This document shows positions 3,195-20,980 of a stretch of DNA of 64,000 nt, in pieces (the first letter of the stretch is position 1; every line of letters begins with the position of its first letter). The stretch is from Corynebacterium sp. CNJ-954. Its GTDB lineage: Bacteria; Actinomycetota; Actinomycetes; Mycobacteriales; Mycobacteriaceae. The notes beneath the pieces were generated by a model that saw only the letters and a list, made by a program, of their open reading frames with translations, was not told where the DNA came from and did not search any database. The stretch is from assembly GCF_001942345.1 (NCBI RefSeq), contig NZ_MKKI01000011.1, positions 124,001 through 188,000 of the forward strand, in the 5' to 3' direction. Both the position numbers and the translations under genes were made by a program.

Positions 3195-3583
3195 TCGGAT
3201 GATCGTAGCGTGGAGGTCTGTCCGAACCAGAGCCCGGGCGACCCGTCGGGAACACCCGGCAGACACGCTGCGATGACGCGGGTGACATCGGCGGTGTTCA
3301 GCGCCTTGTCCTGCCCGTGCGAATCCTGCCAGCAGGCGGTTACCGTCAGCCGGTGCACCTGTTCGCCGATCGGCGGCGTGTCGAATCGTTGCTGGTATTC
3401 GGCCACGAGCATGTTGTCCGGTTCACAGGCTGACTCGATACCGGTCAACCTCACCTCGACACCAGTGGCACCGTGGTCGCCGAGCGCATGTTTGATCGCG
3501 TCAGCCAGCGCCGCGACATGATCCGGGCGGACCAGGACATTCATGTCCGTTGCAGTGGTGACGTTTCGCCCGGGTGTTGTCAT
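3191..3583 (-). CDS. Hypothetical protein translationally coupled to tex
   Basis: A 130-residue protein I do not recognise. It contains ALADAIKHALGDHGATGVEV and LTVTACWQDSHGQD, consistent with a small alpha/beta fold, with no signal peptide or membrane segment. The start is placed at the ATG at 3583; an internal ATG at 3544 is also possible. Its TGA overlaps the tex ATG by four bases, so the two are probably translated together. The upstream gene ends 49 bp before it. Confidence 0.6.
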
Positions 3584-3632
3584 GGCCACCACGCTAGTCG
3601 CGTTCACAGCCCCGCGCCGCCGGGTGTCCGTT

Positions 3633-4358
3633 CTAGAACGGATGCGTGGAGGCGTCCGGATGCGCCGGACTGCCCTGCTGTTCATAGGCCTCGCGGTTGG
3701 CGAGGTCGTCGTCCACGGCCGCATCGACGACTTCACGGAGCCGGTGGATCGTCACGGTGGACCTGGGTATCAGTGAGCCGGCACCAGAGGAGGTGATCAA
3801 CCGGTGTGGACATGCCAGCAGCCAGTCGGTGACCGCCTGTTCCACGGACCGGTCCGCCGAGGGGCAGTACGGGCTTTCGACGTCCGGGAAGCGACGTCGC
3901 CACGGAGCATCGTTGACCTCCCACGGCACGGGCTCCCCGTAGAAATCCTCCTCCCCGGAGCCACCGGTACCGCAGCTCGTCCCGTCCTCCCCGTCGTTCT
4001 CCCGGCCCGCCAGGTCCCGTTGCCGTTGCAGTTCAGCCTCCTGATTCTCGATCCTCGCCCGCAGCCCCGCATGGCGGTCGATCCGGCGCCAGACCGCGTC
4101 CATATGTTCCAGCGTCATCCGGCCGTCCTCGACAGCCGACCAGTACATCTCCGGCATCCTCCACGACAGTTCCGCGGCGTGACGGAACCGCGCAGCGTAC
4201 GCTGCCCCACGCGTGCGCACCATCTCTGAGATGGCGGCGCGCTCGGCTGCGGAGCGACCCCGCAGGCCACTCTGTGCCATCCTGAGTTCCATCCTGTTGA
4301 ACGGATAAACGGTGAGTTCCTCCACCGACGGACTGTTCACCGGTTCGGTGACTGGCAT
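3633..4358 (-). CDS. Uncharacterised protein, weakly 13E12/DUF222-like, no HNH domain
   Basis: A 241-residue protein starting at the ATG at 4358 after a strong GGGGGAG ribosome-binding site. The segment MYWSAVEDGRMTLEHMDAVW resembles the helical DUF222 (13E12) repeats found many times in corynebacterial genomes. The C-terminal HNH nuclease domain that usually follows is absent, so this could be a truncated or divergent member. It contains a charged low-complexity stretch around residues 120-150. Codons look normal for the region. It precedes the tex-coupled gene on the same strand. Family assignment is tentative. Confidence 0.55.
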   Translation of the reverse strand: MPVTEPVNSPSVEELTVYPFNRMELRMAQSGLRGRSAAERAAISEMVRTRGAAYAARFRHAAELSWRMPEMYWSAVEDGRMTLEHMDAVWRRIDRHAGLRARIENQEAELQRQRDLAGRENDGEDGTSCGTGGSGEEDFYGEPVPWEVNDAPWRRRFPDVESPYCPSADRSVEQAVTDWLLACPHRLITSSGAGSLIPRSTVTIHRLREVVDAAVDDDLANREAYEQQGSPAHPDASTHPF

Positions 4359-4521
4359 GATCTCCCCCTTCTCCCGTGGCCGGAAACATATCCGGCCGTC
4401 CAGGAGAACAGTAGCCACGGTGGGCCCCTCACCACCCTCCGCTCCCGGAGAATCGCCAGGACGTTGTGGACAGAACCACTCCTGGGGACAACCCGCCCGC
4501 GACACAGGGCCGTCTATGGTG

Positions 4522-5385
4522 CTACTCCCCCGTCGAGTCCACCGTCGAGTCCACCGTCGAGTCCAGGACGCTGCGGTCCCTGGCGTCCAGCGCACCCTCT
4601 TGCCGCAGAGCCTCGATCAGCTCAGGTCGGGTTGTCGCGGTGCGCAACAGTGCCTGGTCCCTGCGCCACCGGTCCACCTTCGCGTGATCTCCTGAGAGCA
4701 GCACCTCAGGGACCTCCCGTTCCCGCCAGATCCTCGGTTTCGTGTAGCTGGGGCCTTCGAGGAGGCCGTCCTGGAAAGAATCCTCCTCATGACTCCGGCG
4801 GTTGCCCAGAACACCAGGAATCAGCCGTACCACCGCCTCTGCCATCACCAGCACCGCGACCTCCCCGCCGATCAACACGTAGTCGCCGAGGGACACCTCC
4901 TCCACCCGGTACCGCGCCGCTGCGTCGTCGAAGACCCGCTGGTCAATCCCCTCGTAGCGACCACAGGCGAAGACAAGCCGATCCTCCGCCGCCCATCGTT
5001 CAGCCGTGTCCTGGGTGAAGGGTGCCCCGGCGGGGGTCGGGACGACCAGTACGGGTCGGTCATCGTGATCGGCGTGAGCCTGCCCGGTATCCAACGCGTC
5101 GGCCGGTACATGTGGTTGGGCGCTCTCCAGCCGTCTCACAGTGGCTGCCGGGCCGGAAAGGGCCTCGACGTCGTCGAGCGCGGGGCCCCACACCGTCGGT
5201 TTCATGACCATTCCGGGTCCACCACCATAAGGGGTGTCATCCACCGCCTTATGCACGTCATGTGTCCAGGACCGCAGGTCGTGGACGGCGACGTCGAGGA
5301 TTCCGCGCTCGATGGCCCTCCCCAGCAGAGCGTGCCGTAACGGGTCCAGGTACTCGGGAAAGATCGTGATGACGTCCAGACGCAT
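4522..5385 (-). CDS. trmD: tRNA (guanine-37-N1)-methyltransferase
   Basis: TrmD methylates G37 beside the anticodon using S-adenosylmethionine, which prevents +1 frameshifting. The 287-residue product begins MRLDVITIFPEYLDPLRHAL and has the trefoil-knot SAM-binding motifs DDTPYGGGPGMVMKP, GRYEGIDQRV and SLGDYVLIGGE. It is about 40 residues longer than usual: there is an insertion near residues 80-115, and the tail ends in three STVD units encoded by a 12-bp tandem repeat. It starts 11 bp after the rimM stop, the usual rimM-trmD arrangement. Confidence 0.97.
   Translation of the reverse strand: MRLDVITIFPEYLDPLRHALLGRAIERGILDVAVHDLRSWTHDVHKAVDDTPYGGGPGMVMKPTVWGPALDDVEALSGPAATVRRLESAQPHVPADALDTGQAHADHDDRPVLVVPTPAGAPFTQDTAERWAAEDRLVFACGRYEGIDQRVFDDAAARYRVEEVSLGDYVLIGGEVAVLVMAEAVVRLIPGVLGNRRSHEEDSFQDGLLEGPSYTKPRIWREREVPEVLLSGDHAKVDRWRRDQALLRTATTRPELIEALRQEGALDARDRSVLDSTVDSTVDSTGE
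4532..4565 (-). repeat. 12-bp tandem repeat at the trmD 3' end
   Basis: Three near-perfect copies of GTCGAGTCCACC lie head to tail and encode the repeating tetrapeptide STVD at the extreme C-terminus of TrmD. The unit length keeps the frame, so copy-number change would only lengthen or shorten the tail. Confidence 0.9.
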
Positions 5386-5396
5386 GGGGGTTGATC

Positions 5397-5990
5397 TTAC
5401 CCCAGGTCGAGCAGCCCCTCCGGCGGGGTCAGCACCAGCGCACCGTTGTCCAGATCGACGATCGGGACGATGGCGTGGCGGAACGGGACCAGAATCGTCC
5501 CGCCGGCCGTAGACAACGGGGCATCCGTGTCCACCGACACCTCGAGCAACGTGCCGGCGGGACCGTGAGTGACCCCACTGACCACACCGATATCAACCGG
5601 TTCCGGACTGGCGCCGTCGTAGGCCCTGGCGTTGGCGGTCTCTTCGTCGACCTGGCCGCAGTCGAGCACACGCAGGCCCTCGAGCTGATGGTCGTAGAAC
5701 CCGTCCTCCCCCGGTTCTGTCACGGGATCACCGAAGAAACGCAGACCCCGCAACGTTTCTGCCTCGGTACGGTCCGTGACCTCCTCGACCGTGACCAGCA
5801 ACCGGCCTTGGTGGGGCCGCGTCGCCGCCACGGTGAGGGACCGCTCGGTCCCCCGGTGCCGCCCGGTCAGCACGGTACCTACGGCGAACCGTCCCGCCGG
5901 GTCATCGGTGGTCGCATCGACCACCAGCTCCCCCCGCACACCGTGCGGCTTGATCACCCGGCCGATCTGGAGTTGTTCAGTACCTGACAT
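5397..5990 (-). CDS. rimM: 16S rRNA processing protein RimM
   Basis: A 197-residue maturation factor for the 30S subunit head that binds ribosomal protein S19. The N-terminal beta-barrel begins with LQIGRVIKPHGVRGELVV, matching RimM, and a C-terminal PRC-barrel ends with IVPIVDLDNGALVLTPP. The frame is open far upstream as an antisense shadow of gdhA, so the start is set at the ATG at 5990. It is followed 11 bp later by trmD. Normally rpsP lies just upstream; here gdhA has come between. Confidence 0.95.
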   Translation of the reverse strand: MSGTEQLQIGRVIKPHGVRGELVVDATTDDPAGRFAVGTVLTGRHRGTERSLTVAATRPHQGRLLVTVEEVTDRTEAETLRGLRFFGDPVTEPGEDGFYDHQLEGLRVLDCGQVDEETANARAYDGASPEPVDIGVVSGVTHGPAGTLLEVSVDTDAPLSTAGGTILVPFRHAIVPIVDLDNGALVLTPPEGLLDLG

Positions 5991-6022
5991 GGAGGTCAGC
6001 GTACCGCACAGAACCCCGTACC

Positions 6023-7431
<1,409 letters not shown>

Positions 7432-11759: not shown

Positions 11760-13283
11760 TCAGCCCAGTAGTGCGTCGACGAATCCCTCGACCTCGAAGG
11801 GGGCGAGGTCATCGGCACCCTCGCCGAGTCCGACGAGCTTCACCGGCACCCCGAGCTCCTCCTGGATCTGGAAGACGATGCCACCCTTGGCGGTGCCGTC
11901 CAACTTGGTCAGCGCGACACCGGAAATGTCGACGACCTCGCGGAACATCCGCGCCTGAACGAGCCCGTTCTGGCCGACCGTGGCGTCGAGCACGAGGATT
12001 ACCTCGTCGACCTTGGCCTTCTTCTCGACGACACGCTTGACCTTGCCCAACTGGTCCATCAGTCCCACTGAGGTGTGCAGTCGACCTGCGGTGTCGACCA
12101 CGACGACGTCGATACCGTCGTCGACGCCCTTGGCCACCGCGTCAAAGGCGACGGAGGCAGGATCGGCACCTTCCTTGCCCCGCACGGTCTCCGCGCCGAC
12201 CCGTCGGCCCCATGTCTCCAACTGGTCGGCGGCAGCGGCGCGGAACGTGTCTGCTGCACCAAGAAGGACGGAGTGGCCCATCCCGACAAGCACACGCGAG
12301 AGCTTTCCGGTGGTGGTCGTCTTCCCCGTCCCGTTGACCCCGACGACCATGATCACCGCCGGCTTGCCGTCGTACGGCATGGCGTGAATCGAACGGTCAA
12401 GATCAGGCTTGCACGCATCGATCAGGCAGGACCGCAACAGTGCCCGTGCCTCTGCCTCGCTGGAGACGCCCTGGGTGGTGATGCGCTCCCGCAGGTCTTC
12501 GACGACCGCGAGCGTGGTCTTGGTGCCCAGATCCGCCATGAGGAGGGTGTCTTCGATCTCCTCCCACGCATCCTCATCCAGATCTCCCGCGGAGAGGATG
12601 CCGAGCACACCGCGTCCGATAACGTTCTGCGACTTGGACAGATTGCCGCGCAACCGGCCGAGGCGCCCCTCCACCGGGGCGATGTCCTCGACAGATTCTG
12701 GCTCTGCCTCAGGTTCCGGAGTGTGCTCGGGCTCGGGGACGGGCTCCGGTTCGGGTTCTGGAGCAGGTTCAGGTGTGGGCTCTGGTTCAGGGACGGCTTC
12801 TGGCTCGGGAGTTGGTTCGGGCTCCGGCTCCCGGGCAGGTTCAGGTGTGGGCTCCGGCTCCGGGGCGGATTCTGGTTCGGGAGTCGGCTCCGGTTCGGGA
12901 CTGGGCTCAGGCTCCGGCTCTGGCTCCGGGGCTGGTTCGGGTTCCGGCTCCGGGGCTGGTTCGGGTTCCGGAACTGAGGAAGGTGTGGAGGGTTCCGCTG
13001 GTTCCGTCGGTGCTGACGGGGCCGGTGTCGCTGCTCCGCCGAGTTCCTGGCCCGGAAGAACCTCCGGCTCCTTCTCCTCTACGCCAGCTGCGGTACCGGC
13101 GCTGAAGTTGAATCCACCCTGCGCCTGGTAGTTACCGGATGACGGCTTCTTCTCCTCGATCTCCGTCTTCTTCTCGAAGGAGATCTCCTTCTGCTTCCCG
13201 CGGCGCAGGCCGAGGATGATGAGGAGAGCGACGATGACTATGACCGCGACGGCGGCTATGACTATCCAGATAATCGGGTCCAT
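11760..13283 (-). CDS. ftsY: Signal recognition particle receptor FtsY
   Basis: A 507-residue GTPase that receives the SRP-ribosome complex at the membrane. Residues 3-26 form a single hydrophobic anchor ([20 protein letters not shown]). An acidic linker follows, and residues 93-200 are an unusually regular Pro-Glu repeat ([17 protein letters not shown] style). The NG domain begins near 205, with [21 protein letters not shown] and [10 protein letters not shown]. The start is the ATG at 13283, which places the hydrophobic segment at the N-terminus, as in other actinobacterial FtsY. A terminator follows the stop. Confidence 0.96.
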
Positions 13284-13422
13284 CCCACCAGTGAACCAAA
13301 TGTCTCCTCCGCTGTGTGCCGGAGGGCGAGGATTTCTCCGGCTGGTAGCCTTCGGCACTCCCGGAGCCATCCAGCGCGTCGACGTCCTGAGTCCCCCGAG
13401 TCACCGAGGACCCCGAAAGATC

Positions 13423-13495: not shown

Positions 13496-16400
13496 CTATT
13501 CGCTGACGACGGACTCGATCGCAGCCTCAGCAGCGCCAGCTCCGCCGCCACCACCTGCGGTACCTCCTGCCGGGTCCTCGTCCTCCCCCTCATCCTCCTC
13601 CTCGTCGGGGCCGAAGACACCGAGCACCATCGCATCAGCCGCCACGAGGTCGCCGGTGACCAGGTCCGGGACAATACGGGCAATCTCGGCCCACCCTGGG
13701 TACGCCGATGACAGCTGCCCTGTCGAGCCCAGCCGTCCGTGGGCGTGCATGCGCGCCGCTATCGCCAGGATCATACTGATCACCGGGGTCAGGGCCCAGC
13801 GGTTGTCGGGGTTGTCGGTGTCGACGTTGTCGAGCTTGTCGAAGCGAACCCGCGCCGAAGTGTACAGCTGCCGGTTGGTCTGACGGATCCGGCGCAGCAG
13901 CGCCAACGCCACGCGCAGCAGCCCCGGGTCGGCGAGTACCTGACCAAGCTCTTCACGGTGACGGAAGGTCTCGAACACCGCGATCAGCCGGGAGTTCTCC
14001 TCCGACAGGGCGCCGGGGACAACCTGGGACCCGGCGAAGAACGTGCTCAGCACGGCTTCCTGCTGTTCCGGCGACAACTGCGCGATCTGCACCGTGGTGG
14101 CGTCAATGCAGGACGTCTCCAAGGTCGCGTCTCGTCCGGTCTCGACAGTCTGGGACAGCGGCAGCCCGCCAATGGCGGAGAGCCGACGCCCGATCTCACG
14201 GCGTGAAGCGGTGTCCTCGTCATCGGTCGCGGCGAGTTCACCGAGGATCTCCAGCGCGGCGATCCAGGCGACACCGGGACGCGGGTCCGGCGTGGACGAG
14301 CGCAACGAGGCGTGGACCAGCCCGGACAGAATGAACTGAGCGGGACGATCGGTGGACGGCACCAGCGACCGGGACATCGCCCGGAGTGCCTCACGGGGGT
14401 GGCGTGCCAGCGCCGCATGCATTGCCGCGCTGGCATCCGCGGTGGCCTCCCCGGTCAACCAGCCGGCGAGGACGTCCCACAGTACGGTGAGGACGTCGGT
14501 GTCCTCCGGCAGTTCGTCCGACGCACCGGCGAGATAGGCCGAAAGCTGGGTCCAGGGGCCGCCGTCGTCCGGACGGGCATGCCCCGGGACGTCGACGCGC
14601 AGGGCACCCGGACCCGGCGACGCGGCCGGATGCAGCGGGCTGAACCGGTCGCGGTTGTAGAACTGGACACTGAGCGCACCGGCGTCGGTGAGCTCCTCGG
14701 GGAGTTCCGCGACCCCGTTGGCGAAGGACAGCACCCGCGCAGACATCCATGGCGCAGTCAGGGGCCACACCCATGCAGGCGAGTCGGTCTTCGGTTCCAC
14801 CGTCAGGCTGGCGGCCGAACCGTTGTCGGAGGCGGCCGAGTAACTCAGCGTCCGCTTCTCTGCGGGACGCATGGTGACCAACCGCACGCTGTGGCTGCGC
14901 CCGTCGGCGACGAACTCGAGTTCGCAGGAACCTTCGGTCAGCTGCGGCAATGATGCACGGACCGAGGACAACGACACCGACCACGTCACCTGGTCGACGG
15001 TGCCCAGACGGAGAGTGCGTACCGGCGCACCGTGGCGGTCACGGATCACCAGCCGGGGTGATTCGACCGGCATACCCGGCCGGATACGGAACCGGGTCGC
15101 AGAATTGATCTCCACCGCCGGCGCGACCAATGACTCGGTCCGCCACATCGGGTCCTCCCCGATCAGCGGAAGCTGGAACCGCAGGCGTGGCGGTTCCACG
15201 ACCAGCGGCAGTGCGTCGCCGGCGTCAGTCTCTGCAATGACCTGGACGGACTTCTCCTCGGCCGTGATGTCCACGGACTTCGGGATGAAGAGTTGCTTCT
15301 CCCCCGGGAACAGGGAGACGGTCACCGGAGTAAGACCGGCGGCCAGGCCCAGTCGGGGGCTGGCCGGCGCTTCGATGTCCAGGCCCTCCACGATGGCGAA
15401 CTCGTGCCGGAACGATTCATTACGGGGCCCGCGCAGGCGGACCAGGTACTCGCCTACCCACGGGGTCTCATACGCCTCCGGGTCGAAGACGTCGAACATC
15501 CCGCCTTCGGCGGGGACCTCCAGCGGCTCCTCCTCAGTGACTTCTTCGCCGGTCTCGTCGGGCCCGGCCCAGGAGCTGACCGAGAGGAACCAGATCTCCG
15601 GTGCCCCGGACACGGTGGCAGGAAAGACCGCCTGCAGGCTGGAGGCGTGCACGGGCAGGCCACCGAGGGTCCGGATCGCCGGGAGCACGTCCTCCGGTTC
15701 GCGGAACCAGACTCGCTGTCGGGCGTCGACACACCGCACCGTGCCCATCGGCGGCCGTGCGACACCGGGTCGGTCGACGTGCAGAGCCCTGGCTGCGGAC
15801 AGGTCCAGGTCACGGATGACCCAACCGTCCCAGGCCTTGACCTGCCACTCCCCCAGCACCGGGAGTTCGCGGTCGGCGACCGGATCCACGGCGGTGGAAT
15901 CCTCGGGGCAGACGACGAGCACACGGGAATGATGCAGGGACACCCGGTCGGTGAGTTCCTTGCCCCGACGGGTGAAGACCATGACCGGGTCGGCGTCGTC
16001 GACGACCGGCAGTACCCAGGATTCCCCGTGGGTCAGGTCCCGCACGCCGATCTCACGGACGGGTCGGCGGACCGGCAGATCCAGTGTCTCGGTGACGGGG
16101 CGCCCGGGCGCATCGGAACGGCGGGTCCGGAAGCCAGCCGGCCGCCCGTCGACGTCCACATGCCAGCGGACCTCGCCCTCCGCAGCGTCGCTGTCGTCTC
16201 GTTCGTCTCCGGCTCCCCGGACAGACTCCAGCGGCTGCTCGGGCAGTCGCAGGACGACACGTTGGCGGGCCAGGTCGATCGCCAGACGTGGGCGGTCCTC
16301 ACGGGTGCCGACTCCGACACGGTGCCGACGCGCAGTCGTCCCGGCGGGACGTTCACGCAGCTCCTCGATGACGTCCTCGAGCACCAGAGGCGCCACCTGT

Positions 16401-17128
16401 GCTTCCTCGCCGGCGTCCACGAGGGAGTTGACCCAGTGGTCGGGGTGTTCCGCAGCGAGCTGCACGACCCGGACCACCGGGGTGATCAGCCGGACAGCGA
16501 GGTCCGGCAACGCTGCACACAACGGCCCCGCCTGAAGCGATTCCTCGGCGAGGACGGCAACCACTGCGCCAGCTTCTTCAGCGGGGGTGGGCAGGGCATC
16601 GCCGGCGAGCCTACGGGTGTCGATGAGCTCGATGAGCTCGGGGACCCAGTCGGTCGCGATACCGACATGGGCGAACAGACGTCCCTTGTCACCGTCGGAA
16701 CCTGCTGCGGCGGCGTCCATGGGGTCGAGCCCGGCACGGGTGAGGATCTCCGCGTAGTCGATCAGTGAGACGCGTGCGTCCGTCGGCTCCAGACCGAGCC
16801 CCGTCCAGAACTCCGATTCGAGTTCGCCGACGACGTTGAGACGTGCCGCACGGAACAGCAGTGTGGTCGCGGTCAGTGCGGGGCACGTCCGCAACAGGGC
16901 GTCCTCGTCAGCGCCGGCGCGGATCTGGCGGGAGAGGAACTCACCGAAGAAAATCGTGATGCGTTCCAGCTCATCACCGGTGATGTCGAGGTCCACGAAG
17001 ACCGCAGGGTCGCCGCTCAGTTCACCCAGACGTCGGGAAAGGTCGATCTCGGTACTGGATGCCCAGGCGAGGAGGTTGTCGGACAGGTCGGCGATGGGCC
17101 CCTGTGCGGGGCTCGAGGTGTTGCTCAC
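13496..17128 (-). CDS. Very large uncharacterised protein in the smc operon
   Basis: A 1210-residue protein with no signal peptide or clear membrane helix, so probably cytoplasmic. The start is a GTG at 17128, 11 bp after the smc stop, suggesting co-transcription with smc. I cannot name the family. Residues 1-260 are helical; the middle (about 290-830) is rich in short beta-strand patterns with W-G-x-W-type motifs such as LGEWQVKAWDGWVIRDLDLS, and Ig-like repeats (WVGEYLVRLRGP). The last third is helical again and ends in an acidic, Gly-rich tail. No nuclease, ATPase or protease motif is visible. Codon use and GC resemble the neighbours. A hairpin follows the stop. Confidence 0.85.
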   Translation of the reverse strand: MSNTSSPAQGPIADLSDNLLAWASSTEIDLSRRLGELSGDPAVFVDLDITGDELERITIFFGEFLSRQIRAGADEDALLRTCPALTATTLLFRAARLNVVGELESEFWTGLGLEPTDARVSLIDYAEILTRAGLDPMDAAAAGSDGDKGRLFAHVGIATDWVPELIELIDTRRLAGDALPTPAEEAGAVVAVLAEESLQAGPLCAALPDLAVRLITPVVRVVQLAAEHPDHWVNSLVDAGEEAQVAPLVLEDVIEELRERPAGTTARRHRVGVGTREDRPRLAIDLARQRVVLRLPEQPLESVRGAGDERDDSDAAEGEVRWHVDVDGRPAGFRTRRSDAPGRPVTETLDLPVRRPVREIGVRDLTHGESWVLPVVDDADPVMVFTRRGKELTDRVSLHHSRVLVVCPEDSTAVDPVADRELPVLGEWQVKAWDGWVIRDLDLSAARALHVDRPGVARPPMGTVRCVDARQRVWFREPEDVLPAIRTLGGLPVHASSLQAVFPATVSGAPEIWFLSVSSWAGPDETGEEVTEEEPLEVPAEGGMFDVFDPEAYETPWVGEYLVRLRGPRNESFRHEFAIVEGLDIEAPASPRLGLAAGLTPVTVSLFPGEKQLFIPKSVDITAEEKSVQVIAETDAGDALPLVVEPPRLRFQLPLIGEDPMWRTESLVAPAVEINSATRFRIRPGMPVESPRLVIRDRHGAPVRTLRLGTVDQVTWSVSLSSVRASLPQLTEGSCELEFVADGRSHSVRLVTMRPAEKRTLSYSAASDNGSAASLTVEPKTDSPAWVWPLTAPWMSARVLSFANGVAELPEELTDAGALSVQFYNRDRFSPLHPAASPGPGALRVDVPGHARPDDGGPWTQLSAYLAGASDELPEDTDVLTVLWDVLAGWLTGEATADASAAMHAALARHPREALRAMSRSLVPSTDRPAQFILSGLVHASLRSSTPDPRPGVAWIAALEILGELAATDDEDTASRREIGRRLSAIGGLPLSQTVETGRDATLETSCIDATTVQIAQLSPEQQEAVLSTFFAGSQVVPGALSEENSRLIAVFETFRHREELGQVLADPGLLRVALALLRRIRQTNRQLYTSARVRFDKLDNVDTDNPDNRWALTPVISMILAIAARMHAHGRLGSTGQLSSAYPGWAEIARIVPDLVTGDLVAADAMVLGVFGPDEEEDEGEDEDPAGGTAGGGGGAGAAEAAIESVVSE

Positions 17129-17139
17129 GTCATCCCATT

Positions 17140-20100
17140 CTAGGAGGGGTCCGCGGGTTCGGCTGGCTTGGGGTCCATGCGTTGCGAGATGACCCTGGTG
17201 ACCCCGTCACCGCGCATTGTGACCCCGTAGAGGACATTGGCCACATCCATGGTCGGCTTCTGGTGTGTGATCACGATGAGCTGGGAATCCTCGCGGAGTT
17301 CCTCGAACAGTGCGATGAGCCGACGCAGGTTCACGTCGTCCAGCGCCGCCTCCACCTCGTCCATGACGTAGAAGGGGCTGGGACGGGCCCGGAAGATCGC
17401 GACGAGCAGCGCCAGCGCGGTGAGGGACTTCTCCCCGCCGGAGAGCAGTGAGAGCCTCTTGACCTTCTTGCCTGGCGGTCGGGCCTCGACCTCGATGCCG
17501 GTGGTGAGCATGTCATCCGGTTCGGTGAGGATCAGTCGGCCGGCACCGCCGGGGAAAAGCGTGTTGAACACACGGGGGAACTCGTCCTCGACGTCGGTCC
17601 AGGCGTCGGTGAACAGGGCGAGGATCGTGGCGTCGACGTCCTTGATCACCCCCTCGAGGTCGTCCCGCGCCTTCTCTACGTCGTCGAGCTGGGTGGCCAG
17701 GAAGCGGTGACGTTCCTCGAGCGCCGAATACTCCTCCAGCGCCAGCGGGTTGACCTTGCCCAGGGAGCGCAGCGACTTTTCCGCGGCCTTGAGGTCACGG
17801 GTGGCGGCATCTCGGTCGAAGTCGTCTCCGGGAGCCTCGTCCAGTAGTTGGGCGGCGGTCATACCCAGCTGGTCCATGGCCTGTTCCAGCGCCTGTTCGA
17901 TGCGCAGCTGTGCCTGGCTACGGGCGATCTCAGCGGAGTGTGCGGTGTTGGTGAGATGGTTGAGACGCAGTGTCAAGGTGTTGACCTTGTCCTTGCGTTC
18001 GTTCAGCGCCGCCTGCCACTGACGGTGGGCCTCGTCGGTGCGGGCACGGGTTCCCTCGGCGCGGTCCAGGGCGTCCCGGATGCGTACGCCCACCCTCCGC
18101 GCCTGCTCAGCGACGACGCGGGCGCGTTCCCGGGCAGCCCGACGCTTCGCGGCGGCACGGTTGAACTGTTCCCGGGCCGCAGTTTCCTGACGTGCCTGGC
18201 GACGCAGCCCCTCAGCACGTCCCCGGTGGTTGCCGGCGCGTTCTTCCGCGGTGCGCAGGGCGAGACGGGCCTCCATCTCCATGGCACGGGCCTGGGTGAG
18301 CGCCTGAGCGGTGGAGTCACGCTCGGCGGTGGACGGCTCAGCCCCGCTTCCGTCCTCGTCACCGTCAGCGTCCAGGCGCGCGAGCCGGTCGGCGATATCG
18401 TCGGCCTCGACAGCCAGGGCATCACGCCGTTTCTCTGCCTCATCACGCTGGGCCACCGCCTTCTCGAGAAGTCGACGGGCCTGACCTGCGGTGCGTTCGG
18501 CGGCCTCCACACGCTGGCGGGCGGCGGTGAGCCTGGTGCGGTGGTCCTGCACGGCTGCCGTCGCTCCGGCTGCCGCGGTGCGCAGTTCCTCTGCAGCCTG
18601 CTCTGCACCGCTGAGTGTCGCCTGCAGATCGGCCAGCTCGGCCGTGCGTGCGCTGATATCGGCAGCGGCCTGATCGATCCTGGTGGACAGCTCAACCGGA
18701 GTCGTGCCACCCGACCCGGCCGCTACCCATCCCGCACCGACGACCACTCCGGCGGGAGTGACCGCCCGGAGCCGTTCATCGGCTGAGACCGTCCGGCGCC
18801 CCTCCTCCACGTCAGAGACGGCGACAACGTCGACGAGCAGGGCAGTGACTGCAGGAACAACCGCATCGGCGATGTCGATGTGGTCGAGGAGCCAGTCGGT
18901 GGACGGGGTTCCGGTGCCACCGGCGCCGCGGTCCAGACGCCATGACTCCGCGGTGGTGCCGGCACCGTCCCCGGCCAGCAGGACGGTCCGCCCCTCCGCC
19001 GCGTCGACGAGCGCGTCGACCAATGTGTCGAGTGCCTCGGAATTCTCGCCGGCGAGTCCAGCCGGCAGGACGGCTGCCACCGCCTTCTCCCACCCGTCGC
19101 GCACGGTCAGCAGCTCGGCGAGGGGGCGGAGTGCCTCCATACCCCGTTCCTCAGCGGCGCGCACCGCCACCGCCGCCCCGTCCGACGGACGCAGTCGGTC
19201 ACGCCATGCCTCCACGGAAGCCTCCAGGGACGCGATGGTGCGTTCCAGGTCGCGTTCTGCGGCACGGAGTTCAGCGACGCGTCGTTCCGCCCCGGTGGAC
19301 TCCTCGGCGGCCCGGGCAGCGGCGTCTTCCAGGCCCGATCCCTGATTCTGCAGTTCGGCGAGCGCGTCGGCCGCGTCGGCTTCCTCAGAGCCGGTGGTGG
19401 CCTCCAGTGCCTCACGTTGTTCCTCCACGGACTGCTGGAGACGGTCGATCTCCTCGCCTGCCGCGCGGCGGCGTTGGTCCACCGCCTCCTGCTGTGCCAG
19501 GAGACGGACGATACCTTCCCGACGGTCGGCAATCGCCCGCACCTGCGCGAGGTGCTCCTGTTCAGCGTCACGCGCCGCCTCGTCCCGGGCAGCGACGTCG
19601 TCCCGGATGTTCTCCAACCGCTCCGTGGCGACCTCGACCTCCTCGTCGAGCAACGCCTGCTCTTCGTCAGCCTGTTCTGCACGGGCGGTCAGCTCGTCGG
19701 GGTCCTGACCGGTCCAGGTAGTGTCTGCGCCGGAGTCCTCCGCGCGGTCGGAGGCGATCCGCAGAGTTGCGGCATTCTTCTCGGCGATCGTCGACAGACG
19801 GAACCACAGCGACTTCGCCGCCTCCGCGTCCTCGAGGGCGGTGCGTAGCTCTTCCTCGGTCACCGCCAGTTCGCCGGTGTGTTCCTCGAGTGCCTCCTTG
19901 AGCTCTGCGATGTCGGATTCCAGGACTTTCGCCTGGGCGTCGGCGTCGTTGAGTTCATCAGAGAGACGACGGACCTTGTCGGCGGTCAGCAGCAGCCGGT
20001 TCGACCGGATGGTGGCCTGCACCTGCTCGGCACGCTGGGCCGCCTCGGCCTGTCGCGCGAGCGGTTTGAGCTGTTTGGCCAGTTCATCGGTGAGGTCATG

Positions 20101-20673
20101 CAACCGGTCCAGGTTGCCCTGCATTGAGACAAGCTTGCGCTGTGCCTTTTCCTTGCGCCGCCGGTGTTTGAGCACGCCGGCGGCCTCTTCGATGTAGGCG
20201 CGCCGCTCCTCGGGCCGCGACTCAAGAATCTGTGCCAGGCGCCCCTGACCCACGATCACGTGCATCTCGCGGCCGATGCCGGAGTCCGACAACAGTTCCT
20301 GGATGTCCATCAACCGGGCCTTGGCCCCGTTGATCTCGTATTCGCTGGCCCCGTCGCGGAACATGCGACGAGTCACCGATACTTCGGTGTAGTCGATGGG
20401 GAGGGCACCGTCGGCGTTGTCGATCGTGAGGGTCACCTCGGCGCGTCCCAACGCCTTACGGTCGCCGGCACCGGCGAAGATGACGTCCTCCATCTTGCCG
20501 CCACGCAGGGTCTTCGCACCCTGCTCCCCCATCACCCAGGCGAGGGCGTCCACGACGTTCGACTTCCCCGACCCGTTCGGCCCGACGACCGCACAGATAC
20601 CCGGTTCGAGTTTCAGGGTCGTCGCCGACGCGAAGGACTTGAAACCCTTCAGGGTCAACGACTTGAGGTGCAT
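17140..20673 (-). CDS. smc: Chromosome segregation ATPase SMC
   Basis: A 1177-residue structural-maintenance-of-chromosomes protein. Walker A is GPNGSGKSNVVDALAWVMGE near residue 32. Two long coiled coils flank a hinge around residues 500-640. The C-terminal head has the signature LLSGGEKSLTALALL and Walker B FYVMDEVEAALDD. It acts with ScpA/ScpB, not encoded here, in chromosome compaction. The start is the ATG at 20673 (MHLKSLTLKGFKSF), the normal SMC N-terminus; a 16-codon upstream extension has no similarity. acyP lies 16 bp upstream and the large unknown gene 11 bp downstream. Confidence 0.97.
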   Translation of the reverse strand: MHLKSLTLKGFKSFASATTLKLEPGICAVVGPNGSGKSNVVDALAWVMGEQGAKTLRGGKMEDVIFAGAGDRKALGRAEVTLTIDNADGALPIDYTEVSVTRRMFRDGASEYEINGAKARLMDIQELLSDSGIGREMHVIVGQGRLAQILESRPEERRAYIEEAAGVLKHRRRKEKAQRKLVSMQGNLDRLHDLTDELAKQLKPLARQAEAAQRAEQVQATIRSNRLLLTADKVRRLSDELNDADAQAKVLESDIAELKEALEEHTGELAVTEEELRTALEDAEAAKSLWFRLSTIAEKNAATLRIASDRAEDSGADTTWTGQDPDELTARAEQADEEQALLDEEVEVATERLENIRDDVAARDEAARDAEQEHLAQVRAIADRREGIVRLLAQQEAVDQRRRAAGEEIDRLQQSVEEQREALEATTGSEEADAADALAELQNQGSGLEDAAARAAEESTGAERRVAELRAAERDLERTIASLEASVEAWRDRLRPSDGAAVAVRAAEERGMEALRPLAELLTVRDGWEKAVAAVLPAGLAGENSEALDTLVDALVDAAEGRTVLLAGDGAGTTAESWRLDRGAGGTGTPSTDWLLDHIDIADAVVPAVTALLVDVVAVSDVEEGRRTVSADERLRAVTPAGVVVGAGWVAAGSGGTTPVELSTRIDQAAADISARTAELADLQATLSGAEQAAEELRTAAAGATAAVQDHRTRLTAARQRVEAAERTAGQARRLLEKAVAQRDEAEKRRDALAVEADDIADRLARLDADGDEDGSGAEPSTAERDSTAQALTQARAMEMEARLALRTAEERAGNHRGRAEGLRRQARQETAAREQFNRAAAKRRAARERARVVAEQARRVGVRIRDALDRAEGTRARTDEAHRQWQAALNERKDKVNTLTLRLNHLTNTAHSAEIARSQAQLRIEQALEQAMDQLGMTAAQLLDEAPGDDFDRDAATRDLKAAEKSLRSLGKVNPLALEEYSALEERHRFLATQLDDVEKARDDLEGVIKDVDATILALFTDAWTDVEDEFPRVFNTLFPGGAGRLILTEPDDMLTTGIEVEARPPGKKVKRLSLLSGGEKSLTALALLVAIFRARPSPFYVMDEVEAALDDVNLRRLIALFEELREDSQLIVITHQKPTMDVANVLYGVTMRGDGVTRVISQRMDPKPAEPADPS

Positions 20674-20689
20674 GGGCGTGGATTTTACC

Positions 20690-20980
20690 TCAGCGGGTCT
20701 CGAACCCGGTGTAGTCGCCACGCGGGCCCGTCACCGAGTCCACCACCTGGTCCACATGCCCCGGGGTCTCACCCGAACGCAGCCAGGCTAACAGCGCGCC
20801 TGTCGCGTCGCCCGACCCCTCGGCTACCACCAGCACACGGCCGTCCGGGTAGTTTGACGCGAAACCGACGAGGCCGAGTTCAAGGGCCTTCGTCCTGGTC
20901 TTCCAACGGAAGCCGACACCCTGGACATGGCCGTGTACCCAGGCGGTCAGTCGGGTGGTCGGTGCATCAGCGCGGCTCAT
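20690..20980 (-). CDS. acyP: Acylphosphatase
   Basis: A 96-residue enzyme hydrolysing acyl phosphates. The active-site loop HGHVQGVGFRWKT contains the phosphate-binding arginine, and FASNYPDGRVLVVAEG contains the catalytic asparagine. It has the family's normal length. It lies 16 bp upstream of smc, a conserved actinobacterial pairing, and 9 bp after the stop of the AGCS transporter gene. Confidence 0.95.
   Translation of the reverse strand: MSRADAPTTRLTAWVHGHVQGVGFRWKTRTKALELGLVGFASNYPDGRVLVVAEGSGDATGALLAWLRSGETPGHVDQVVDSVTGPRGDYTGFETR

Follow-up and report, generated by a model that had tools for sequence, protein, structure and literature searches.

Druantia type III defence systems, in which a gene for the helicase DruE stands next to a gene for DruH, have been dissected only recently and DruH is their least understood part. 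PMC13192584 describes E. coli DruH (YjiT) as a protein with helical ends and immunoglobulin (Ig)-like domains, which shows a dimer-dependent nuclease activity and requires an N-terminal surface (approximately residues 63–137) for defence. In Mycobacterium smegmatis the pair consists of DruH MSMEG_1253 (1132 amino acids, aa) and DruE MSMEG_1254 (1667 aa; DEAD, Helicase_C and DUF1998), as given in PMC13316683. The same paper reports that DruH alone inhibits growth of M. smegmatis, that DruE, SftH or the M. tuberculosis homologue relieves this inhibition, that SftH (MSMEG_6160) or M. tuberculosis MRA_3684 replaces DruE and gives phage resistance, and that SftH binds DruH in a pull-down. Here we describe a gene for a 1210-residue protein between smc and ftsY of Corynebacterium sp. 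CNJ-954, located on a stretch of 64,000 nucleotides of contig NZ_MKKI01000011.1 (positions 124,001 to 188,000, called the window below), and compare it with these systems.

The family of actinobacterial DruE partners

In order to find relatives of the window protein we searched four samples: a first set of 101 genomes (the own genome included), 348 genomes of the order, 396 of one genus, probably Mycobacterium, and 151 Corynebacterium genomes. Homologues were present in 39 of the first 101 genomes, with the own genome counted. Many of them follow smc, and at 24 such loci, two of them on the same contig, both genes could be read. Some accessory copies lie directly upstream of a helicase of 1541–1752 aa as judged by open reading frame (ORF), and two such helicases scanned with PADLOC match DruE1 with E values of 8.7e-188 and 1.5e-179. 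The order-wide profile search detected the family in 18 genomes, four of them Corynebacterium, and at 14 of the 15 loci in the remaining 14 genomes a DruE gene on the same strand adjoins the homologue, the exception being L132. In the probable Mycobacterium sample the family was found in 25/396 genomes, and DruE is adjacent at all ten loci fetched from 23 further matches. DruE is thus located directly downstream of the homologue at 24 of the 25 loci examined outside Corynebacterium, and 10 of 20 pairs show an overlap of 4 bp between the two genes when the earliest start is taken. DruE-linked pairs also occur in at least four Corynebacterium genomes (L039, L040, L041 and L139, the last one cut at a contig end). 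The exceptional locus L132 (9054–12305) holds a full-length orphan from outside Corynebacterium, whose genome carries a second, DruE-linked copy at L124.

Using hhalign, the profile of 13 smc-linked proteins matched that of 14 mostly DruE-linked proteins with a probability of 100 and E 9.8e-99 over 1078 columns. The latter set includes the orphan L132 and the Roseomonas plasmid protein L145, which was picked only by its position before a DruE-type helicase; without these two, a comparison of 27 rows linked to smc or ilvA/dnaE with 22 DruE-linked rows from outside Corynebacterium gave E 2e-111, with a reversed control at E 0.34. As the homologues outside Corynebacterium are nearly always linked to DruE and the alignment runs from end to end, we regard the window protein as an orphan DruH-like protein without DruE, and on sequence grounds its place in the family of actinobacterial DruE partners is firm. 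The name DruH-like is used by family and gene partnership, as the link to E. coli DruH itself is weak (see below). With the Druantia type III-like pairs of Mycobacteriales the orphan shares the full-length homology of the first gene, the length class and 53 columns that are conserved in smc-linked as well as DruE-linked rows. It differs from them in having no DruE nearby or elsewhere in its genome (E ≤ 1e-30), in its housekeeping locus and in the loss of N-terminal columns. Its neighbours are smc and ftsY, where Druantia type III has DruE next to DruH, and it is the only family member detected in the 3.77-Mb assembly.

Druantia III-A and III-B helicases are set apart in PMC12458937, and the DruE-linked pairs found here would belong to the branch described there as most often having no nuclease domain. 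The DruE-linked relatives show the two-gene layout of MSMEG_1253/MSMEG_1254, and in 8 of 20 DruE-type proteins a Walker lysine is found at position 119, as is K119 in PMC13316683. In contrast to the D225 published there, residue 225 (K119 plus 106) falls here into an LLTNYAMLEY stretch off the DEAH box. The spacing E-x2-E-x8-D near the C-terminus occurs in only one smc-linked protein (L065) and was judged to be chance. The family of the window protein is likely the same as that of M. smegmatis DruH. Another set of DruE-like matches, approximately 1700–2470 aa long and found in 22/151 Corynebacterium genomes, was set aside as Druantia candidates; the two loci of these 22 genomes that were looked at, L140 and L141, have neighbours resembling those of ARMADA type II. 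One of these long matches spans positions 3746–10138 of L140.

The smc-linked clade and its selection

The gene, the regions of its product and its neighbours are arranged in the window as follows.

13496–17128, minus strand: orphan DruH-like protein gene (1210 aa/codons, GTG start), from the ORF call and the profile match with DruE-linked partners over the full length; nearly all smc-linked relatives have it intact
16343–17128, minus strand: N-terminal helical region, approximately residues 1–262, from secondary structure (poor model) and residue analysis; preferential loss of columns that DruE-linked relatives conserve
14564–16342, minus strand: beta-rich centre, approximately residues 263–855, probably Ig-like domains and including W433-D-G-W436, from secondary structure, fold matches and motif scan
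14543–15211, minus strand: residues 640–862, beta-sandwich domains when modelled alone (AlphaFold2, predicted local distance difference test (pLDDT) 76.2, predicted TM score (pTM) 0.65; VIA and Foldseek)
13607–14563, minus strand: C-terminal helical region, approximately residues 856–1174, with conserved W1111, S1118, R1126, P1154 and D1160, from secondary structure and conservation
13499–13606, minus strand: acidic Gly/Ala-rich tail, residues 1175–1210, not conserved, from composition and alignment gaps
17140–20721, minus strand: smc, directly upstream (Pfam SMC_N and SMC_hinge)
11760–13370, minus strand: ftsY, downstream (Pfam SRP54 and SRP54_N)

In the direction of transcription smc is followed after 11 bp by the GTG of the orphan gene and the latter after 125 bp by ftsY; a preliminary description of the window had likewise placed a protein of 1210 residues 11 bp behind smc. 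From its sequence context the gene is probably co-transcribed with smc; a promoter and terminator scan around it revealed nothing above chance, so that it is the spacing that speaks for co-transcription. Read on the plus strand, this interval contains six in-frame stops. The frame is open in nearly all smc-linked copies, with the copy in genome G040 being split, and these homologues show 41–98% identity, with 98% protein identity to Corynebacterium glyciniphilum strain DE0385. As homologues keep the frame open and the ratio of nonsynonymous to synonymous substitution rates (dN/dS) is 0.03–0.21 in six close pairs, the frame represents more than chance. The N-terminal extension of FtsY holds a long Pro-Glu repeat region (window 12696–13133).

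The 151 Corynebacterium genomes were surveyed for the family and for its linkage to smc. The family was detected in 106 of them, and at least 67 have a copy behind smc, on the same strand and not more than 2 kb away (up to 550 bp in 66 genomes and 1857 bp in one, measured by hit ends). These linkage counts are based on 109 family places, comprising the main place in each genome and any second copies but no minor fragments, and two of these places allowed no SMC-linkage test. For SMC, the places in 147 of 148 genomes with a match were used. The gap of 11 bp to smc is found in the window and at 8 of 23 other loci measured, with L035 and L051 being one contig. In three genomes smc and the DruH-like gene are 9.5–9.9 kb apart. 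A block of genes occupies this interval in L176 (7157–16048) and L177 (7739–15322), and the third genome has the same spacing; by Pfam the L176 block comprises glycosyltransferases, an ABC transporter, APH-like kinases and a UDP-sugar dehydrogenase. On the other side of the gene, the DruH-like gene of L052 is separated from ftsY by a gene (3515–6652) that fuses phosphatidylglycerol lysyltransferase and lysyl-tRNA synthetase, and ORFs of similar size are present at this place in L053 and L054. Two family-negative genomes that were read show smc and then ftsY with no family match between them.

We reconstructed a tree of 60 rows with a quick method and a midpoint root, in which long branches were flagged; the near-duplicates L031, L033, L035, L037 and L051 were excluded together with the partial L139 and the fragment L043, and N-terminal trimming was applied to L041, L124 and L128–L130. 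In this tree the 21 smc-linked rows group in a single clade with a Shimodaira–Hasegawa-like approximate likelihood ratio (SH-aLRT) support of 100, and its sister are six rows linked to ilvA/dnaE, all six of which (the loci labelled dnaE) have ilvA, dnaE and a treZ-like gene within the stretch read. Both groups then join a short type and the Corynebacterium DruE-linked rows. This short relative of approximately 700–900 aa without DruE (L044–L050) is a second orphan type in Corynebacterium, with leuS within the stretch read at 5 of 7 loci. Since DruE-linked members are found in both halves of the tree, we infer that the direction was from a defence pair to an orphan. As the tree allows separate losses of DruE in the smc plus ilvA/dnaE clade, in the short clade and in the one orphan outside Corynebacterium, domestication may have happened more than once. 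The claim in the preliminary description that the gene is conserved beside smc therefore holds for one clade and at least 67 of the 151 genomes; it does not extend to the 45 genomes in which no family member was detected or to the sister clade near ilvA/dnaE.

In five pairs with the window gene dN/dS was 0.033, 0.065, 0.057, 0.139 and 0.214, compared to 0.042, 0.064, 0.074, 0.149 and 0.165 for smc, and a sixth pair (L032–L033) gave 0.090 for the gene and 0.092 for smc. Purifying selection on the orphan is thus about as strong as on smc in this small sample of close relatives. For four DruE-linked pairs the values for the DruH-like protein and DruE were 0.218/0.159, 0.149/0.089, 0.217/0.175 and 0.080/0.064. 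The trees of the orphan and of SMC, calculated for 19 taxa with five near-duplicate loci left out, agree only in part and have 7 of 16 splits in common; 500 random shuffles gave a mean of 0.33 and a maximum of 3.

These data bear on two alternative explanations. The gene might be a decaying remnant of a defence system, as DruE is absent from its own genome (E ≤ 1e-30) and the tail is not conserved, but we give next to no weight to this possibility in view of the frame that is open in nearly all smc-linked copies, the low dN/dS of the six close pairs and the 53 columns that smc-linked and DruE-linked rows have kept in common. Alternatively, the protein might be an accessory factor of SMC or of chromosome organisation with a function unrelated to immunity. 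The same-strand copies within 2 kb behind smc in at least 67/151 genomes, the 11-bp gap in the window and at eight other loci, and a selection similar to that on smc fit to such a factor. On the other hand, 45/151 genomes have no detected family member, the sister clade is found near ilvA/dnaE, 9.5–9.9 kb separate smc from the gene in three genomes, and adjacency can also be inertia of a conserved locus. With the SMC accessory proteins ScpA, ScpB, MukE and MukF the orphan shares the smc neighbourhood only, and it has no Pfam match to any of them; also no kleisin or KITE domain was detected in the window protein or in 20 family members, using Pfam hidden Markov models (HMMs) only. Overall, we consider a function as pure SMC factor improbable.

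Protein architecture and N-terminal change

No Pfam, PADLOC or NCBIfam model matched the window protein at thresholds up to E 10, and in the PDB nothing scored better than E 0.2 for the single protein and E 0.98 for the family profile, which agrees with its description as a member of an unrecognised family as far as existing models are concerned. A Pfam scan of 20 family members resulted in chance matches only (best E 0.078). No homologue was detected in phages, with the window protein as query, or in viral contigs, and none in plasmids, where the DruE-linked L042 protein and not the window protein was the query. A simple hydropathy scan found no transmembrane stretch in the window protein (maximum 1.49). 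Among the titles listed in searches of open-licence PMC papers none concerns an smc-linked DruH-like gene of Corynebacterium.

The predicted model of the whole protein shows helices at 11–259 and 858–1168 and strands at 289–845, in agreement with the helical ends and beta-rich centre noted before, albeit in a poor model with a pLDDT of 54 and a pTM of 0.33. The acidic Gly-rich tail is also present (residues 1175–1210), yet beyond approximately residue 1175 the columns of 13 smc-linked proteins are mostly gaps and the tail is therefore not a conserved part. The W-G-x-W motifs mentioned in the preliminary description do not exist; instead there is a single W-D-G-W at 433–436, whose two tryptophans are invariant across 20 aligned members. 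Foldseek found no match for the whole model at E ≤ 1e-3. With residues 645–756 as query, proteins of phage baseplate, neck and connector took the first five rows in VIA (Z 7.3 to 6.2). With the better model of residues 640–862, beta-sandwiches of translocon, filamin, TarS and S-layer proteins came first and a mycobacteriophage baseplate protein reached rank 9, with Z values up to 7.9 that lie below the level showing kinship, and Foldseek gave seven matches at E ≤ 1e-3, all to complement C3. The similarity is read as a common Ig-type fold and not as a sign of kinship with phage baseplates; the models suggest that the centre probably consists of Ig-like domains.

In order to see where the orphans have changed we used as reference the 107 columns that are conserved in at least 80% of 25 DruE-linked rows. 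In the smc-linked rows 10 of these columns are kept and 16 lost within residues 1–262 compared to 67 kept and 14 lost elsewhere (Fisher p 3.4e-5). No N-terminal bias is seen in the three Corynebacterium DruE-linked rows (20/6 versus 55/26, p 0.47), and that of the ilvA/dnaE-linked rows is less pronounced (14/12 versus 61/20, p 0.05). When the 22 other DruE-linked rows served as reference, p was 5.3e-6 for smc-linked, 1 for Corynebacterium DruE-linked and 0.0048 for ilvA/dnaE-linked rows. An example is P158, which is present in all 25 DruE-linked rows and in approximately 5% of the smc-linked rows. By sequence this loss agrees with the defence surface of E. coli DruH only at the level of an N-terminal helical region. 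Such selective changes point to a region that may couple a DruH-like protein to DruE.

A candidate helicase and a proposed role of the orphan

Although DruE is missing, the own genome encodes one protein with an MZB match, which has 807 aa with DEAD, Helicase_C, HRQ1 winged helix and MZB domains, resembles DruE over the motor motifs and is by predicted domains and size an SftH/MrfA-like helicase. We propose that a DruH-type defence protein was domesticated in an ancestor of the smc-linked Corynebacterium clade, for which the support is good, and that it probably works with this core helicase; on the proposal as a whole we are evenly divided. The ancestral protein would have kept its beta-rich recognition core and its helical C-terminus, with the N-terminal region being retuned, so that the orphan would probably no longer be an activator of DruE. 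As the most likely mechanism, its Ig-like centre would sense abnormal DNA–protein structures such as phage or stalled replication intermediates, and the orphan would act in trans with the single YprA/SftH/MrfA-type helicase detected in the cell. With its expression coupled to that of smc, foreign or damaged DNA would be unwound or nicked near the chromosome-organising machinery. The fuller form of this proposal, a defence sensor turned into a vertically inherited chromosome-maintenance protein that is expressed with SMC and works with the core YprA/SftH helicase, we put forward only tentatively. The preliminary description had considered a role in organising the chromosome and, as its other option, a component of defence or stress response not recognised so far: defence is supported by the descent of the protein, given its DruE-linked homologues, and for a role with SMC there is nothing beyond adjacency.

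Alternatively, the orphan might still be an immune protein that protects against phages when paired with the core SftH-type helicase, in the manner of the DruH–SftH hybrid constructed in mycobacteria. Its kinship with the DruE-linked partners, the published replacement of DruE by SftH (PMC13316683) and the MZB match in 150/151 Corynebacterium genomes would fit to this. The housekeeping neighbourhood, the restriction to one clade and an evolution about as slow as that of smc in the six pairs do not, nor does the loss of N-terminal columns conserved in DruE-linked copies; moreover, the dN/dS of the DruH-like protein exceeds that of DruE in all four DruE-linked pairs. We regard a continued immune function as rather unlikely. 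A further analogy, to the growth inhibition by M. smegmatis DruH and its relief by DruE, SftH or the M. tuberculosis homologue (PMC13316683), would be an addiction-like pair, in which the free protein is harmful and restrained by SftH or another factor. The orphan has no linked gene for a partner of this kind, and 45/151 genomes have no detected family member, yet all but one have an MZB match, which makes this pair very improbable.

Several observations weigh against the domestication proposed above. The SMC tree is rejected by the family data (approximately unbiased (AU) test, 8e-7), so that occasional exchange at the smc locus is possible; the family tree is not rejected by the SMC data (AU 0.077), and the 5000 replicates used were flagged by the program as an insufficient number. 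The poor fold model of the whole protein also counts against it. Regarding the helicase, the MZB match is nearly universal, the one miss being a genome that is 53% complete, and co-occurrence can therefore not decide on a partnership with SftH. For E. coli, PMC13192584 reports no stable DruH–DruE complex by mass photometry, in contrast to the interaction reported for the mycobacterial proteins. M. smegmatis DruH was sought among the matches in 198 and then 396 genomes of its genus group (overlapping draws, and it may be outside the sample), and in the proteins tested no more than five of nine published residues fitted at a fixed offset.

The remaining points concern classical DruH. E. coli DruH does match the PADLOC DruH3 and NF038336 (YjiT_fam) models, but the PADLOC DruH models and NF038336 match neither the orphan (up to E 10) nor the DruE-linked relatives scanned. 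At the profile level the connection to E. coli DruH is weak, with a probability of 91.8 and E 7.5e-7 for the row set holding L145 and L132, and probabilities of 77.8 for all 60 rows, 61.7 for DruE-linked and 30.7 for non-Corynebacterium rows, compared to 0.1–0.3 for reversed controls; orphans alone gave no match to the E. coli DruH profile. The likeness would consist of the predicted helix–beta–helix layout, a probable Ig-like centre, the gene order before DruE in the DruE-linked relatives and a weak colinear match of the wider family, in which hhalign places W and G-G/A-G motifs of the orphan family and E. coli DruH opposite each other, although not significantly. Taken together, the sequence comparison is suggestive of homology to classical E. 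coli DruH (YjiT).

For domestication as we propose it, the data suggest that the orphan was kept like a housekeeping gene after the loss of its partner, a piece of immunity taken over for another job. A DruH-like protein without DruE that has long been kept beside smc shows that the scaffold can be of use in the absence of its helicase. As many Corynebacterium genomes have a lone DruH-like gene together with an SftH-type core helicase, they offer a natural test of the published DruH–SftH hybrid. If true, the domestication would directly link bacterial immunity and chromosome organisation.

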